Shown one piece after another: positions 20,465 to 26,712 of a stretch of DNA of 64,000 nt (its first letter is position 1; each line of letters begins with the position of its first letter). The notes under the pieces were generated by a model, which was given only the letters and a program-made list of their open reading frames with translations, made no database searches and was not told where the DNA came from. This stretch comes from Sedimentisphaera salicampi. GTDB taxonomy: Bacteria > Planctomycetota > Phycisphaerae > Sedimentisphaerales > Sedimentisphaeraceae. The DNA is taken from positions 1,116,001 through 1,180,000 of the forward strand of contig NZ_CP021023.1 in the NCBI RefSeq assembly GCF_002117005.1, in the 5' to 3' direction. The position numbers and the translations under genes are program-made.

Positions 20465-21340
20465 TCACGCTGCCAAGTGCACCGCCTCTGGTATTCGATA
20501 GCCTAATGCTGCATGCGGGCGGCGGGTATTATAAAGCAACACCGCTTGTTTTACTGCCTCATAGGCATGTTCCTTTTTCGCAAAGGTATTGCACAAACCA
20601 TATTCATGTTTCATTATTCCGTTAAGCCGCTCTGCCTTAGCATTTTCATAACAATGTTTATCTTCTGTCATGCTGATACCAATACCAGCTTCTTGGAGCA
20701 TATCAATATAAGCATTGCAGCAGTACTGGCAGCCTCGATCGGAATGATGAACCGCCTTTGCTGAGGTGGGGATCTGCTTCAATGCTCGGTTCAAGGCTCT
20801 TAAACAACCCTCGGCCTCAAGACTATCACTGCAATCATAACCTATGACCTTGCGGCTGAAGGCATCCATTACAAGAGCAAGATAGACAAAACCCTGATCG
20901 GTGCGTATATAAGTTATATCACTTACAATTGCCTCATTTGGGCCTTGCAGATTCATATCTTTAAGCTTATTACTATAGACCCGAAACCTGTGCCGGCTGT
21001 TAGTCGTTGAGGTGCTGCGTCTTTTAGGCTTGATCAGCTTATTAAACTTGCCCATCAAATCGAAAAACCGATCTCGACCTATACTAACCCCCGCTTCTGA
21101 TAAGTCCTCAGATATCAGCGACAAGAGCTTTCTGCAGCCTAATTGAGGCTGCAAGGAACGCTCCTGGTTTACCAAATCCATTATAAAAGCCTCATCAATA
21201 AGCTGCTTTTGACGCACTTTACGAGTCTTATAAAAATACTGGCGGCTTATGCCTGATGCGCAGCATATTTCAGTTATGGTTACTTTTTCTTCCTTTTCTG
21301 AAGCCCTTTTGTAAGCCTTGTGTGCCGTTTCGTATCTAGT
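20465..21340 (-). CDS. IS3-family transposase OrfB (integrase catalytic part, made by -1 frameshift from OrfA)
   Basis: The frame runs from the slippage site at 21340 to the TGA at 20465 (291 residues after the shift). An internal ATG at 21217 would give only 250 residues and would lose ITEICCASGISRQYFYK. The rve-type catalytic triad is visible: Asp in SDITYI, Asp in HHSDRG, and Glu in ENAKAERLNG, with the family C-terminus YNTRRPHAALGYRIP. Together with OrfA it forms a fused transposase of about 410 residues. Confidence 0.92.
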   Translation of the reverse strand, partial: TRYETAHKAYKRASEKEEKVTITEICCASGISRQYFYKTRKVRQKQLIDEAFIMDLVNQERSLQPQLGCRKLLSLISEDLSEAGVSIGRDRFFDLMGKFNKLIKPKRRSTSTTNSRHRFRVYSNKLKDMNLQGPNEAIVSDITYIRTDQGFVYLALVMDAFSRKVIGYDCSDSLEAEGCLRALNRALKQIPTSAKAVHHSDRGCQYCCNAYIDMLQEAGIGISMTEDKHCYENAKAERLNGIMKHEYGLCNTFAKKEHAYEAVKQAVLLYNTRRPHAALGYRIPEAVHLAA

Positions 21341-21696
21341 TTTTTTTTGACTTCTTCACTGTCCAAGCCAAACTGCTCACAGGTAACTTCAAATCGAGAA
21401 TCACTTACAAGCTTTTCTAAATAAGCATCTGCGAGAGCTTCTTTCAGCTCTTTGTTCTCTGCTTTTAATTGCTTTAACCGGTCATGTTCATCTGGTCTTT
21501 CCACGCGTATCCTCTTTGGTATTAAATGGTTTCGGCCGTATTTCTTAAGCCAACGCTTAACGGTGTGGCTTCCTGCTATTCCATAACGAATATTGGCTTC
21601 ATTTATACATGAGAGTTTACCAGATTCAAGCTCATTTACCACTTGCAACTTAAATGCTTCACTATAACGAGTGCCTGTAGGTCTTTTGTCTTTCAT
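21280..21696 (-). CDS. IS3-family transposase OrfA (helix-turn-helix part)
   Basis: 138 residues. The N-terminal helix-turn-helix is of the IS3/IS911 kind (RYSEAFKLQVVNELESGKL, YGIAGSHTVKRWLKKYG), followed by a leucine-zipper-like coil near residues 75-95. It binds the IS ends and, produced alone, usually regulates transposition. The run of nine A on the coding strand at 21348-21340 is the likely -1 slippage site leading into OrfB. Confidence 0.9.
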   Translation of the reverse strand: MKDKRPTGTRYSEAFKLQVVNELESGKLSCINEANIRYGIAGSHTVKRWLKKYGRNHLIPKRIRVERPDEHDRLKQLKAENKELKEALADAYLEKLVSDSRFEVTCEQFGLDSEEVKKKLDTKRHTRLTKGLQKRKKK

Positions 21697-22124: not shown

Positions 22125-23852
22125 ATGCAGGAACTAAAACCAATATACACAGTGAGCACAGACTGCCAGGACTGCTACAAATGCCTCAGGGAATGCCCTG
22201 TTAAGGCAGTTAAGGTGTCCTCCGGCAGTGCGAGCGTAGTGCATGAGCTTTGCATAAGCTGCGGGCACTGCCTGAATGTATGCCCGCAGGGAGCAAAGAG
22301 ATACCGCAGCGACGTTCAGCTCGCCTCAAACACGATCTCGAAATATAAGGCTATGGGCAGAAAAGTGGCCGCTTCTATTGCCCCGAGCTTTATCTCGGAA
22401 TTTTCTGACCTGCCTGTTTCGAGCTTTATCAAGGCGGTTAAGATGCTGGGCTTTGATATAGTATCTGAGACAGCTCTGGGAGCGGAGCAGGTTTCTGCGG
22501 CAACTGTAAAATATCTACAGCAGGAGAAGCCGGATGTGTGCATATCCTCTGCCTGCCCTGTGATGGTGGAGTTTATAAAGAAGTATTACCCATCTCAGGC
22601 CGGCAGGATTGCGCCGATGTTCTCGCCTCTGCTGGTGCACTGCCGAATGCTCAAGCAGATTTACGGCGAGGATGCAGCAGTTGTGTTCATAGGGCCATGC
22701 GCGGGCAAAAAGCTGGAGGCAGATTCAAATCCAGACCTCCTGAACGCCTCAATAACATTTGAAGAGCTCAGGGGATGGCTGGATGCTGAGGGGATAACCC
22801 CCCGCCATCTGCCAGAAAATATGGAAAGATTCAGCCCGAACAGGGCTTCGAACGGGGCGCTGTACCCTGTAGAAGGCGGTATGCTCTCGGGGATCAAGCA
22901 TGGGTGCAGCTCAGTTGAGAGCAGTTATGCATCGTTTTCAGGGATTGAGAATGTGAGAAAAGTTTTGGAGGATCTGGAAAACAACGAGCCGCCTTCCCCG
23001 CTGTTTCTCGAGCTGCTTGCATGCGAGGGAGGCTGCATAAACGGCCCTCTGGTTTCAGATAAGAAGAAGCTTCTCTCAGGCCGCGCAAATGTATTGAATT
23101 ATGCGAACTACCGCAAAGACAACATCACAGACAGCCCGGAAGTGGAAACGAGGGGCGAATACAGAATTGAGCCTGTGATACCGGCAGAGCACCGCCCTTC
23201 TCAGATAAAGAAGGCCCTTGAAAAGGTGGGCAAATACAGCACCGAAGATGAGCTGAACTGCGGCTGCTGCGGCTATGATACTTGCCGGAATTTCGCAAAC
23301 GCAATGCTGAGCGGGAAGGCCGAGCCGTCAATGTGCGTGGGGAATATGCGGAAGATTGCCGCCAGCAAGCTCGACAGCGTTATCAGCGCCCTGCCCTGCG
23401 GGATAATCATAGCAGATTCAGGCAGCAGGGTCGTTGAGAGCAACAGGAAATTTGCAGAGCTGATGGGCGAGGATAATCTCGCTGTTTACCAAAGCTGCGG
23501 CGGACTGAACGGGGCTTCGCTGGAGAAGGTAGTCCCGTTCGACTACTACTTCAAGCAGGTAATCGAGAAAGAAAACGGATTTATCGAGAAGGAAATGAGC
23601 AGCGAAACGGGCGTTCTGAACGTGCAGATATTCACGATAGAGAAGAACCAGCTCGTTGGCTGCATAGCGCAGGATATAACAGAGCCGGCAGTGGAGAAAG
23701 AGCAAATCATCAGCAAGGCGCAGGAAGTGATGGATCAGAACCTTGATACAGTGAAAAAAATAGCTCACCTGCTCGGCGAAAACGCCGCAGCATCCGAGGA
23801 CATACTTAACTCTATAATCAAAAACTCCAAAAAAACAGGGGTGAAAAAATAA
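22125..23852 (+). CDS. Sensory [FeFe]-hydrogenase-like protein with FeS and PAS domains
   Basis: 575 residues. Two N-terminal [4Fe-4S] motifs (CQDCYKCLRECP, CISCGHCLNVCP) feed a hydrogenase large-subunit domain. The four H-cluster ligands are kept: Cys144 (SSACP), Cys192 (GPC) and Cys300/Cys304 (CEGGC). The residue before Cys144 is Ala143, where catalytic enzymes have the proton-relay Cys. Next comes an FeS domain (CGCCGYDTC, about 385) and a PAS domain (about 412-520). This layout is that of HydDB group-C-type putative sensors such as Thermotoga HydS. It probably senses H2 or redox state in the cytoplasm and signals to the phosphatase encoded next. Confidence 0.88.
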   Translation: MQELKPIYTVSTDCQDCYKCLRECPVKAVKVSSGSASVVHELCISCGHCLNVCPQGAKRYRSDVQLASNTISKYKAMGRKVAASIAPSFISEFSDLPVSSFIKAVKMLGFDIVSETALGAEQVSAATVKYLQQEKPDVCISSACPVMVEFIKKYYPSQAGRIAPMFSPLLVHCRMLKQIYGEDAAVVFIGPCAGKKLEADSNPDLLNASITFEELRGWLDAEGITPRHLPENMERFSPNRASNGALYPVEGGMLSGIKHGCSSVESSYASFSGIENVRKVLEDLENNEPPSPLFLELLACEGGCINGPLVSDKKKLLSGRANVLNYANYRKDNITDSPEVETRGEYRIEPVIPAEHRPSQIKKALEKVGKYSTEDELNCGCCGYDTCRNFANAMLSGKAEPSMCVGNMRKIAASKLDSVISALPCGIIIADSGSRVVESNRKFAELMGEDNLAVYQSCGGLNGASLEKVVPFDYYFKQVIEKENGFIEKEMSSETGVLNVQIFTIEKNQLVGCIAQDITEPAVEKEQIISKAQEVMDQNLDTVKKIAHLLGENAAASEDILNSIIKNSKKTGVKK

Positions 23853-23869
23853 AGGCGCAGGAGCATTTC

Positions 23870-25033
23870 ATAGAGATAGACCATTATCAGGCTCTCAAGC
23901 ACGGCCAAAGGCTATGCGGGGATGTCGTGGAGAAGCTGCGTCTTGAGGATCAGGGCAGGGTGATCACTGCCCTTTGCGACGGGCTTGGCTCGGGCATAAA
24001 AGCGCACATACTCTCAACCCTCACCTCCACCATCGCCACGCACTTTGCGGCTTCTGAATCCAACCTCAGGCGGTATATCGAGATCATAAGCCAGATACTG
24101 CCCGAATGCAGCGAGAGAAACCTTGGCTACTCAACGTTTACAATCTCTGATATAGATTCCAGCGGCCGGAATAAGCTGATTGAGTTTGACAACCCCTCCG
24201 CTATTCTCATAAGAAACGGCAAGACCGAAAGAATACAGCGAAGGAAGGTTTCGGTGAAATACGGTAAGCTCGGCAGCAGAGAAGTTTACCAGAGCGTAAT
24301 CGAAATGCAGAAAGGCGACAGGCTCGCAATCTGCAGCGACGGAGTAACCGAATCAGGCAGGGGCGAAAAGGGTATGCAGTGGGGCTGGGAGGAAGAGAAT
24401 CTTGCGAAATTCTGCGAACGGATTTGCAGGGAGAATAAAGAGCTTTCAGCAAGGCAGATGGCAAAGGGAATCGTTGAGGCTGCGATAAAGAATGAAGGCG
24501 GGCAATGCAGGGACGATGCAACTGCGCTTGTGATAAACATCAGAAGGCCGAAGAAGACACTGCTTGTAACCGGGCCGCCCTCTCACAAAAAATTCGATGC
24601 ATACATTACAGACAGAGTAAAGAACTTCATCGGAGCTAAGATTATCTGCGGCGGGACAACCGCAAAGATAATAGCAGATATGCTCGGAAGAGCCCTGCAT
24701 ACAAATCCCGCAGCACTTGGCAGAGGTTTGCCGCCGGCCTCGGAGATTGAGGGGGTGGATTTAGTTACAGAAGGCATCCTCACGCTCTCAAAGCTTGAGG
24801 AGATGCTTGATGCCGGAAGCAGCGGAAAAACAGAAAACACTCCGGCAGAGGCGCTGATGGAGCTTCTGCTCGAATCGGATATAATCACCCTTATAGTGGG
24901 CACGAAAATCAACCAAACGCATCACAATCCGGATTTCCCGATTGATGTTGAGATTCGCAGGAATCTAGCCCGAAGGCTGAAAAGGGTGCTTGAAAACAAA
25001 TATTTGAAGAAAGTTGAGATTGAGCTGGTATGA
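23870..25033 (+). CDS. SpoIIE-type PP2C phosphatase with unconventional start
   Basis: The frame is open from 23810 to 25033 but has no ATG, GTG or TTG before the GTG at 23927. Starting there would drop HFIEIDHYQALKHGQRLCGD, which carries the first metal-binding Asp of the phosphatase domain. I place the start at the ATA at 23870 because AGGAG lies six bases upstream; a frameshift from the preceding gene is the alternative. The domain continues with DGLGSGIKAH and CSDGVTESG near residue 160 and ends near 230. The last 150 residues form a separate conserved-looking region beginning KKTLLVTGPP. Next to hydrogenase sensors such phosphatases are thought to relay the signal. Confidence 0.75.
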   Translation: MEIDHYQALKHGQRLCGDVVEKLRLEDQGRVITALCDGLGSGIKAHILSTLTSTIATHFAASESNLRRYIEIISQILPECSERNLGYSTFTISDIDSSGRNKLIEFDNPSAILIRNGKTERIQRRKVSVKYGKLGSREVYQSVIEMQKGDRLAICSDGVTESGRGEKGMQWGWEEENLAKFCERICRENKELSARQMAKGIVEAAIKNEGGQCRDDATALVINIRRPKKTLLVTGPPSHKKFDAYITDRVKNFIGAKIICGGTTAKIIADMLGRALHTNPAALGRGLPPASEIEGVDLVTEGILTLSKLEEMLDAGSSGKTENTPAEALMELLLESDIITLIVGTKINQTHHNPDFPIDVEIRRNLARRLKRVLENKYLKKVEIELV

Positions 25034-25287
25034 AGAAGATCACTGTTGAAATATGCACAGGCACAACCTGCCATGTGATGGGCTCGGAAGCGATTATGGA
25101 AATACGCAATATGCTCTCAGAGCGATACAAAGAGTCCGTAGAAATCAAGGCAACAAGCTGCCTTGGGTTCTGCCGCGAAAGGCAGGCAGGAGAGGCTCCC
25201 TTTGTTAAGGTAAACGGGAGAATCGTTCCAGAGGCCAGCCTGCTGAAAGTAACTCAGATGATTGACGAGATAGAGAGGGGCAATTAG
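25030..25287 (+). CDS. Thioredoxin-like [2Fe-2S] ferredoxin (NuoE/HydC-like)
   Basis: 85 residues. Cysteines are arranged CTGTTC near residue 9 and CLGFC near 44, the pattern of the thioredoxin-fold [2Fe-2S] proteins related to NuoE and HydC. It would pass electrons to or from the hydrogenase encoded next. The ATG overlaps the phosphatase TGA (ATGA) and the next gene starts directly after its TAG, so the three are tightly coupled. Confidence 0.85.
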   Translation: MKKITVEICTGTTCHVMGSEAIMEIRNMLSERYKESVEIKATSCLGFCRERQAGEAPFVKVNGRIVPEASLLKVTQMIDEIERGN

Positions 25288-26712
25288 ATGCTCTCAGATA
25301 ACAACGCCAGCAAAATAATAAAGAAACTGCTCGTGGAAACTGCCCGCTTATGCTTCGAAGGAAGGCTTGAGGAGGGCATAGACCGGCTTGTGATTGATAC
25401 GATTCCCAAAAAGAGCAATGCAAACCGCTGCTGCGTTCATAAGGACCGGGCAGTGATAAAATACCGCCTGATGGCAATCCTCGGCCACAGCGCAGAAGAG
25501 GAAGAAGACGAGCTCAAGCGGCTGAGCGAATATGCAGGGCAGACCCTCCAGCGGGAAGAAATCAGCGAGCCTGTGCTTACGGTAATCGATGAGGCATGCA
25601 GCGCCTGCCCGGCAGGGAGGCATTTTGTAACCAACGTATGCAGGGGCTGCGTTGCGAGGCCGTGCATGGTAAACTGCCCGAAAGACGCCATCCAAATTCA
25701 CAACGGCAGAGCAGAAATCGATGAGGACAAATGCGTAAATTGCGGAATATGCCTGAAGGTATGCCCGTATAACGCTATAGTTGAGATTCCTGTGCCCTGC
25801 GAGAACGCCTGCCCTGTGGGGGCGATAAGCAAAGATGAAAGCGGGAAGGAGCAGATAGACTACTCAAAGTGCATATTCTGCGGAAGGTGTATGACAGCGT
25901 GCCCGTTCGGAGCGATTATGGAACGCTCGCAGATTATTGACGTGGCGAGGAAGCTCGCAGAGGGGCGGAAGGTGGCAGCGCTTACTGCGCCTTCGGCTGC
26001 CGGTCAGTTCCCGTGCGAGTTCAGCCAGCTTAAAGGAGCGATCCTCAAGGCCGGATTCAGCGAGGTGCTGGAGGTGGCGGAAGGGGCAGATATCACCGCC
26101 AAAAAAGAGGCCGGGGAGTTTGAAGAAAAGATCAGCGAGGGGCAGAAATTTATGACCTCAAGCTGCTGCCCTGTTTACAAAGAGGCAGCGAAAAAACACA
26201 TCCCTGAATTGTGCGAGTTTATATCTGACACCCCAACTCCCATGGAATTTGCCGGCAGAAAGGCCAAAGAGAAATACCCCGGCTGCACCGCTGTGTTCAT
26301 AGGGCCCTGCATAGCAAAAAGGCAGGAGGCCCTGGAAGGCCGCTCGATAGATCACGTGCTCACCTGCGAGGAGCTTGGGGCAATATTAGTGGCCAAGGAT
26401 ATCTTCGTACGTGAGACTGAACCGGCTGAAACGCCCGGACAGGCCAGCATAGAGGCAAGGAAATTCGGCGCCTCCGGCGGTGTTACTGAAGCGGTTAAGG
26501 CGAATCTCTCAGGTAATATACAAATCAAACCCGAACTTATAGACGGCTTAGACAACAAAAACATCAAAAAACTCGCCGATATATGCACCGGCAAGACAAA
26601 TTTTAATTTTGTGGAGGTAATGAACTGCAAAGGCGGCTGCGTTGGGGGGCCGGGGAATCTGAGCACCCCTGCAAGAGCAGCGAAAAGGATCGAGAAAACA
26701 TTCGAACCATAA
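25288..26712 (+). CDS. [FeFe] hydrogenase, group-B-like
   Basis: 474 residues. A Cys-rich N-terminus (CSACPAGRHFVTNVCRGC) is followed by two ferredoxin-type motif pairs (CVNCGICLKVCP; CIFCGRCMTACP). The catalytic domain has TSSCCP at 290-295 with both the proton-relay Cys293 and the ligand Cys294, GPC at 339-341 and CKGGC at 447-451. Unlike its partner three genes upstream it keeps the full active-site set. GPC in place of the common MPC and the N-terminal CxGC motif fit monomeric group B enzymes. It probably makes or uses H2 with ferredoxin or the adjacent [2Fe-2S] protein. Confidence 0.88.
   Translation: MLSDNNASKIIKKLLVETARLCFEGRLEEGIDRLVIDTIPKKSNANRCCVHKDRAVIKYRLMAILGHSAEEEEDELKRLSEYAGQTLQREEISEPVLTVIDEACSACPAGRHFVTNVCRGCVARPCMVNCPKDAIQIHNGRAEIDEDKCVNCGICLKVCPYNAIVEIPVPCENACPVGAISKDESGKEQIDYSKCIFCGRCMTACPFGAIMERSQIIDVARKLAEGRKVAALTAPSAAGQFPCEFSQLKGAILKAGFSEVLEVAEGADITAKKEAGEFEEKISEGQKFMTSSCCPVYKEAAKKHIPELCEFISDTPTPMEFAGRKAKEKYPGCTAVFIGPCIAKRQEALEGRSIDHVLTCEELGAILVAKDIFVRETEPAETPGQASIEARKFGASGGVTEAVKANLSGNIQIKPELIDGLDNKNIKKLADICTGKTNFNFVEVMNCKGGCVGGPGNLSTPARAAKRIEKTFEP

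Follow-up and report, generated by a model that had tools for sequence, protein, structure and literature searches.

A probable AUA start codon for a SpoIIE-type phosphatase gene overlapping the stop codon of a putative hydrogen-sensor gene in Sedimentisphaera

Bacterial genes that begin with AUA are rarely documented in nature. Here we examine a SpoIIE/PP2C-type serine phosphatase gene of Sedimentisphaera salicampi that lacks a standard start codon ahead of its first metal-binding motif, within the window (the whole 64,000-nucleotide stretch of contig NZ_CP021023.1 that was analysed; positions are counted from its first letter). From sequence comparison we infer that the phosphatase is very probably made as a separate protein initiated at AUA 23849, with low efficiency and therefore lower yield than its neighbours, and coupled to translation of the sensor gene whose stop codon the AUA overlaps. 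Most likely this is a normal gene with a weak start, rather than the product of a sequencing error or part of a fused protein. The features on which the analysis rests, all on the forward (+) strand, are as follows.

22125–23852, +, putative sensory [FeFe] hydrogenase (HfsB/HydS-like), ending GTG AAA AAA TAA; open reading frame with Fe_hyd_lg_C, FeS and Fer4 domains.
23837–23844, +, Shine-Dalgarno site AGGGGTGA, with a GGGG-to-ATA gap of 7 nt; duplex with the 16S tail of −11.2 kcal/mol.
23849–23851, +, proposed ATA (AUA) start codon of the phosphatase; in 107 of 112 homologues the nearest in-frame start lies within −4 to +3 codons, and the codon is conserved in the sister-species locus L003.
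23849–25033, +, SpoIIE/PP2C-type serine phosphatase gene, 394 amino acids when read from the ATA; SpoIIE domain, profile match and dN/dS.
23850–23852, +, sensor stop codon TAA, overlapping the ATA as ATAA; TAG (ATAG) in the sister species.
23870–23872, +, ATA, an internal Ile codon of the first strand; preceding AGGAG not conserved, duplex −6.6 kcal/mol.
23918–23923, +, conserved Gly-Asp, first acidic motif of the PP2C fold; invariant G24/D25 and alignment to SpoIIE structures.
23927–23929, +, GTG, the first ATG/GTG/TTG of the frame; an internal Val codon, too far 3′ for a start.
25030–25287, +, thioredoxin-like [2Fe-2S] ferredoxin of the same operon (PF01257).
25288–26712, +, monomeric [FeFe] hydrogenase of group B type (TIGR04105 FeFe_hydrog_B1, 519.6 bits against a cut-off of 450).

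From stop to stop, the phosphatase frame spans 23810–25033 (+) in the open reading frame listing, and its identity is supported by a Pfam SpoIIE domain (E = 6.6e-23, 82.1 bits against a cut-off of 25) and by the acidic metal-site residues D25, D44, D164 and D222, invariant in the 13 aligned homologues. An earlier sequence-only reading had found no ATG, GTG or TTG between the upstream stop at 23807 and GTG 23927, and a scan of the frame agrees, with GTG 23927 the earliest of these codons. The same reading placed the conserved Gly-Asp upstream of that GTG. This too is borne out: in the codons TGC GGG GAT GTC GTG, the GTG stands two codons 3′ of GAT 23921, the Asp codon of a pair that is invariant in 13 of 13 aligned homologues (columns G24 and D25 of alignment A1) and matches the GD of solved SpoIIE structures by profile. 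A protein begun at GTG 23927 would therefore miss the motif. A run of 26 start-free codons is unremarkable alone, its chance probability being about 0.28 given how frequent start codons are locally; the gap acquires meaning because it is kept in the sister species and the skipped codons encode conserved protein. Three in-frame ATA codons precede the Gly-Asp, at 23849, 23870 and 23876.

In the sister species of the genus (genome G001, locus L003, reading GGGGGTGAAAAAATAG), the phosphatase is 90% identical and its frame is likewise without ATG, GTG or TTG ahead of the Gly-Asp. The junction there, ACGGGGGTGAAAAAATAGCGCTGGCGGAGAATTTCATAGAG, retains the ATA and the spacing of the window, with the sensor stop changed to TAG. 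Upstream of the ATA, the L003 frame is open for 51 codons (1340–1492), again free of ATG, GTG and TTG, because the counterpart of the window stop at 23807 is AAA. DNA similarity between the window and a syntenic stretch of 60 kb in the sister genome extends into intergenic regions. The codons immediately after the ATA have diverged (KAQEH in the window, ALAEN in the sister species), which shows two diverged sequences rather than a single record that was copied. This bears on the proposal that a sequencing error conceals a normal start: although one base change would turn the junction into ATGA, the single-contig assemblies of the two species agree on ATA while nearby codons differ, and the sister frame offers no standard codon in its place. 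With the ATA shared by two diverged genomes, such an error is excluded for practical purposes. Conservation of ATA 23849 is in part imposed by the sensor codons that overlap it (the last Lys and the stop); were the sensor stop to become TGA, an ATG would arise, and the absence of this change in both species is weak evidence at a dS of about 0.7.

The pattern of substitution indicates that the skipped codons encode protein under constraint. Between the two species, codons 8–26, which lie upstream of GTG 23927, show no nonsynonymous and four synonymous changes; the whole phosphatase has dN 0.058 and dS 0.69, a pattern like that of the sensor gene (dN 0.046, dS 0.70). The low dN relative to dS therefore places the phosphatase under purifying selection, including the part upstream of GTG 23927. 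The phosphatase might instead be a copy in decay that has lost its working start and persists only because the loss is recent, and an ATG-started second copy of the operon does exist in both genomes (L002 and L025). A whole-gene dN/dS of about 0.08, similar to that of the sensor, together with intact conserved acidic residues and the absence of internal stops, leaves decay with a very small probability.

Homologues were found by alignment query of genome contigs, and 114 loci, a few of them duplicates of one contig, were examined by script; they come from the same genome, the class and other phyla (Bacteroidota, Spirochaetes, Cloacimonadota, Acidobacteria and others). The 112 loci compared here are those left after removal of the sister-species locus and of one locus truncated at a contig end. 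An in-frame ATG, GTG or TTG precedes the Gly-Asp in 112 of these 112 complete homologues; among the loci examined, the ATA arrangement occurs in the two species of the genus and not outside it. Taking as the start the nearest in-frame ATG, GTG or TTG, which is not a proven start, the homologue start falls −4 to +3 codons from the position of ATA 23849 in 107 cases (the script found 106; it missed L119, which was added after a separate check); five Treponema/Spirochaetaceae loci have theirs 6 to 14 codons upstream of that position. Four loci (L073, L110, L125 and L130) reproduce the exact overlap geometry of the window, with the same stop-to-start offset, but carry a canonical ATG or GTG (ATGA or GTGA) where this genus has ATA (ATAA). 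The genome also holds a second sensor–phosphatase pair (L002, G000:C1:3020473-3024645), with a counterpart, L025, in G001; its phosphatase is about 44% identical and has an ordinary ATG, 14 bases before the sensor stop and preceded by GGGG CAAAG.

The ribosome-binding signal also points to ATA 23849. The 3′ end of the 16S rRNA of this genome is ...GGATCACCTCCTTTCT, and pairing was computed between its tail, UCACCUCC, and the 16 bases before ATA 23849. The resulting duplex (−11.2 kcal/mol) compares with −6.6 kcal/mol for ATA 23870 and −5.8 kcal/mol for GTG 23927, and is stronger still in the sister species (−14.5 kcal/mol). Of the 2,464 ATA triplets that the window contains on its two strands, only 1.1% have a Shine-Dalgarno site as strong, and only 3 of the 42 gene-like open reading frames of the window have a stronger one. 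The phosphatase gene combines the lack of a usable ATG, GTG or TTG with a strong and well-spaced Shine-Dalgarno site and with conservation in two species of the genus.

The sequence-only reading had favoured ATA 23870 behind an AGGAG. That motif is indeed present six bases before the codon in the window and can pair with the 16S tail; however, it is absent from the sister species, which reads GCGGAG AATTTC ATA, and its pairing is much weaker than that of ATA 23849. Moreover, ATA 23870 sits within the conserved first strand 'FIEI/V', and homologue starts lie about 4–8 codons upstream of it. Initiation there is accordingly quite improbable: a non-standard ATA start stands as the best explanation of the gene, with 23849 and not 23870 as the codon.

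A different solution would dispense with a start codon altogether, through a −1 slip on the A6 run at the sensor end that fuses sensor and phosphatase into one chain. The sequence GTG AAA AAA TAA is present as described, the run is identical in both species, the phosphatase lies in the −1 frame relative to the sensor, and a P-site tRNA-Lys at the AAA beside the stop can move back by one base and still pair perfectly. The junction (G AAA AAA) does not, however, have the form X XXY YYZ of a tandem slippery heptamer, and allows single P-site re-pairing at most; the RNA downstream is not unusually structured (z = −0.51); and in the paralogous pair of this genome the phosphatase has an ATG of its own, with no A6 run where the two genes meet. 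The Shine-Dalgarno site here is too near the slip site for −1 stimulation, at a distance that suits initiation at ATA 23849. None of the 114 homologous loci examined encodes a fused sensor–phosphatase. The slip and the fusion are thus unlikely, and initiation at AUA 23849 remains the preferred reading.

The genetic setting resembles a known hydrogenase operon. In Thermoanaerobacterium, hfsABCD encodes a PAS-containing sensory hydrogenase (HfsB), a serine phosphatase (HfsC) and a hydrogenase (HfsD), and a regulatory role of HfsB is supported (PMC11837493, PMC5707799). As there, a sensory [FeFe] hydrogenase here adjoins a serine phosphatase and a second [FeFe] hydrogenase, so that the HfsB-like sensor, an HfsC-like phosphatase and an HfsD-like group B hydrogenase stand together as in an hfs-type operon; it differs in the small [2Fe-2S] protein between phosphatase and hydrogenase and in the AUA start proposed for the phosphatase. 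The C-terminal part of the sensor may be PAS-like, judging from its family: no Pfam PAS match was found in the sensor at E 0.001, and residues about 410–575, after the FeS domain, are long enough for such a domain. The phosphatase would act downstream of the hydrogen sensor. Just upstream of the operon, at 20465–21696 (−), are two open reading frames whose translations resemble, by eye, orfB and orfA of an IS3-type transposase. The end of this orfA is a lysine-rich, A-rich stretch, a usual place for a programmed −1 slip.

Non-AUG initiation has an apparent precedent in this genus and documented ones elsewhere. The infC gene, which encodes IF3, habitually uses near-cognate starts, and an apparent ATC start after GAGGT in both species of the genus (L050 1470–1525; L137) fits this habit; in the sister species no ATG, GTG or TTG precedes the conserved VNERI, GTG being replaced by GTT. 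The genus thus appears, from its sequences, to use non-AUG starts at infC. In Staphylococcus aureus, ribosome mapping has shown AUA starts at infC, ccpN and citZ, and extended Shine-Dalgarno sites are found at infC, ccpN and cvfC1 (PMC13009471). In reporters, output from the AUA of ccpN and citZ and from the AUU of cvfC1 was about 10% of that from AUG in poor medium; in rich medium, ccpN reached up to 30% (PMC13009471). The S. aureus AUA genes infC, ccpN and citZ share with the present gene a strong and properly spaced Shine-Dalgarno site, a weak codon being joined to strong start-proximal pairing (GGGGUGA here), and the AUA of ccpN is conserved between species, as is this one. The phosphatase gene differs from them in being internal to an operon, in the overlap of its AUA with an upstream stop, in belonging to the Planctomycetota and in having a start predicted from sequence.

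These observations suggest how the phosphatase could be started. A ribosome ending the sensor at the overlapping UAA, or a new 30S subunit, would be held by AGGGGUGA seven bases upstream, and fMet-tRNA would then start the phosphatase on the near-cognate AUA 23849. Ribosomes finishing the sensor could in this way reinitiate at the overlapping AUA, which would couple the phosphatase to the sensor. AUA is a weak start codon, such that the gene could be poorly expressed, and a phosphatase level below that of the sensor is therefore expected. More speculatively, and with rather less than even likelihood, the overlap may be a selected weak start that holds the phosphatase-to-sensor ratio low through IF3-sensitive termination–reinitiation at AUAA/AUAG; in the literature surveyed there is no example of a coupled non-AUG start at such an overlap.

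A gene finder that accepts only ATG, GTG and TTG would either omit this gene or begin it downstream of the first metal-site motif. Backed by homology, the locus is a clean example of AUA in the place where relatives carry AUG or GUG within a stop–start overlap. It suggests that translation initiation could be the step that sets phosphatase dose in relation to the hydrogen sensor.
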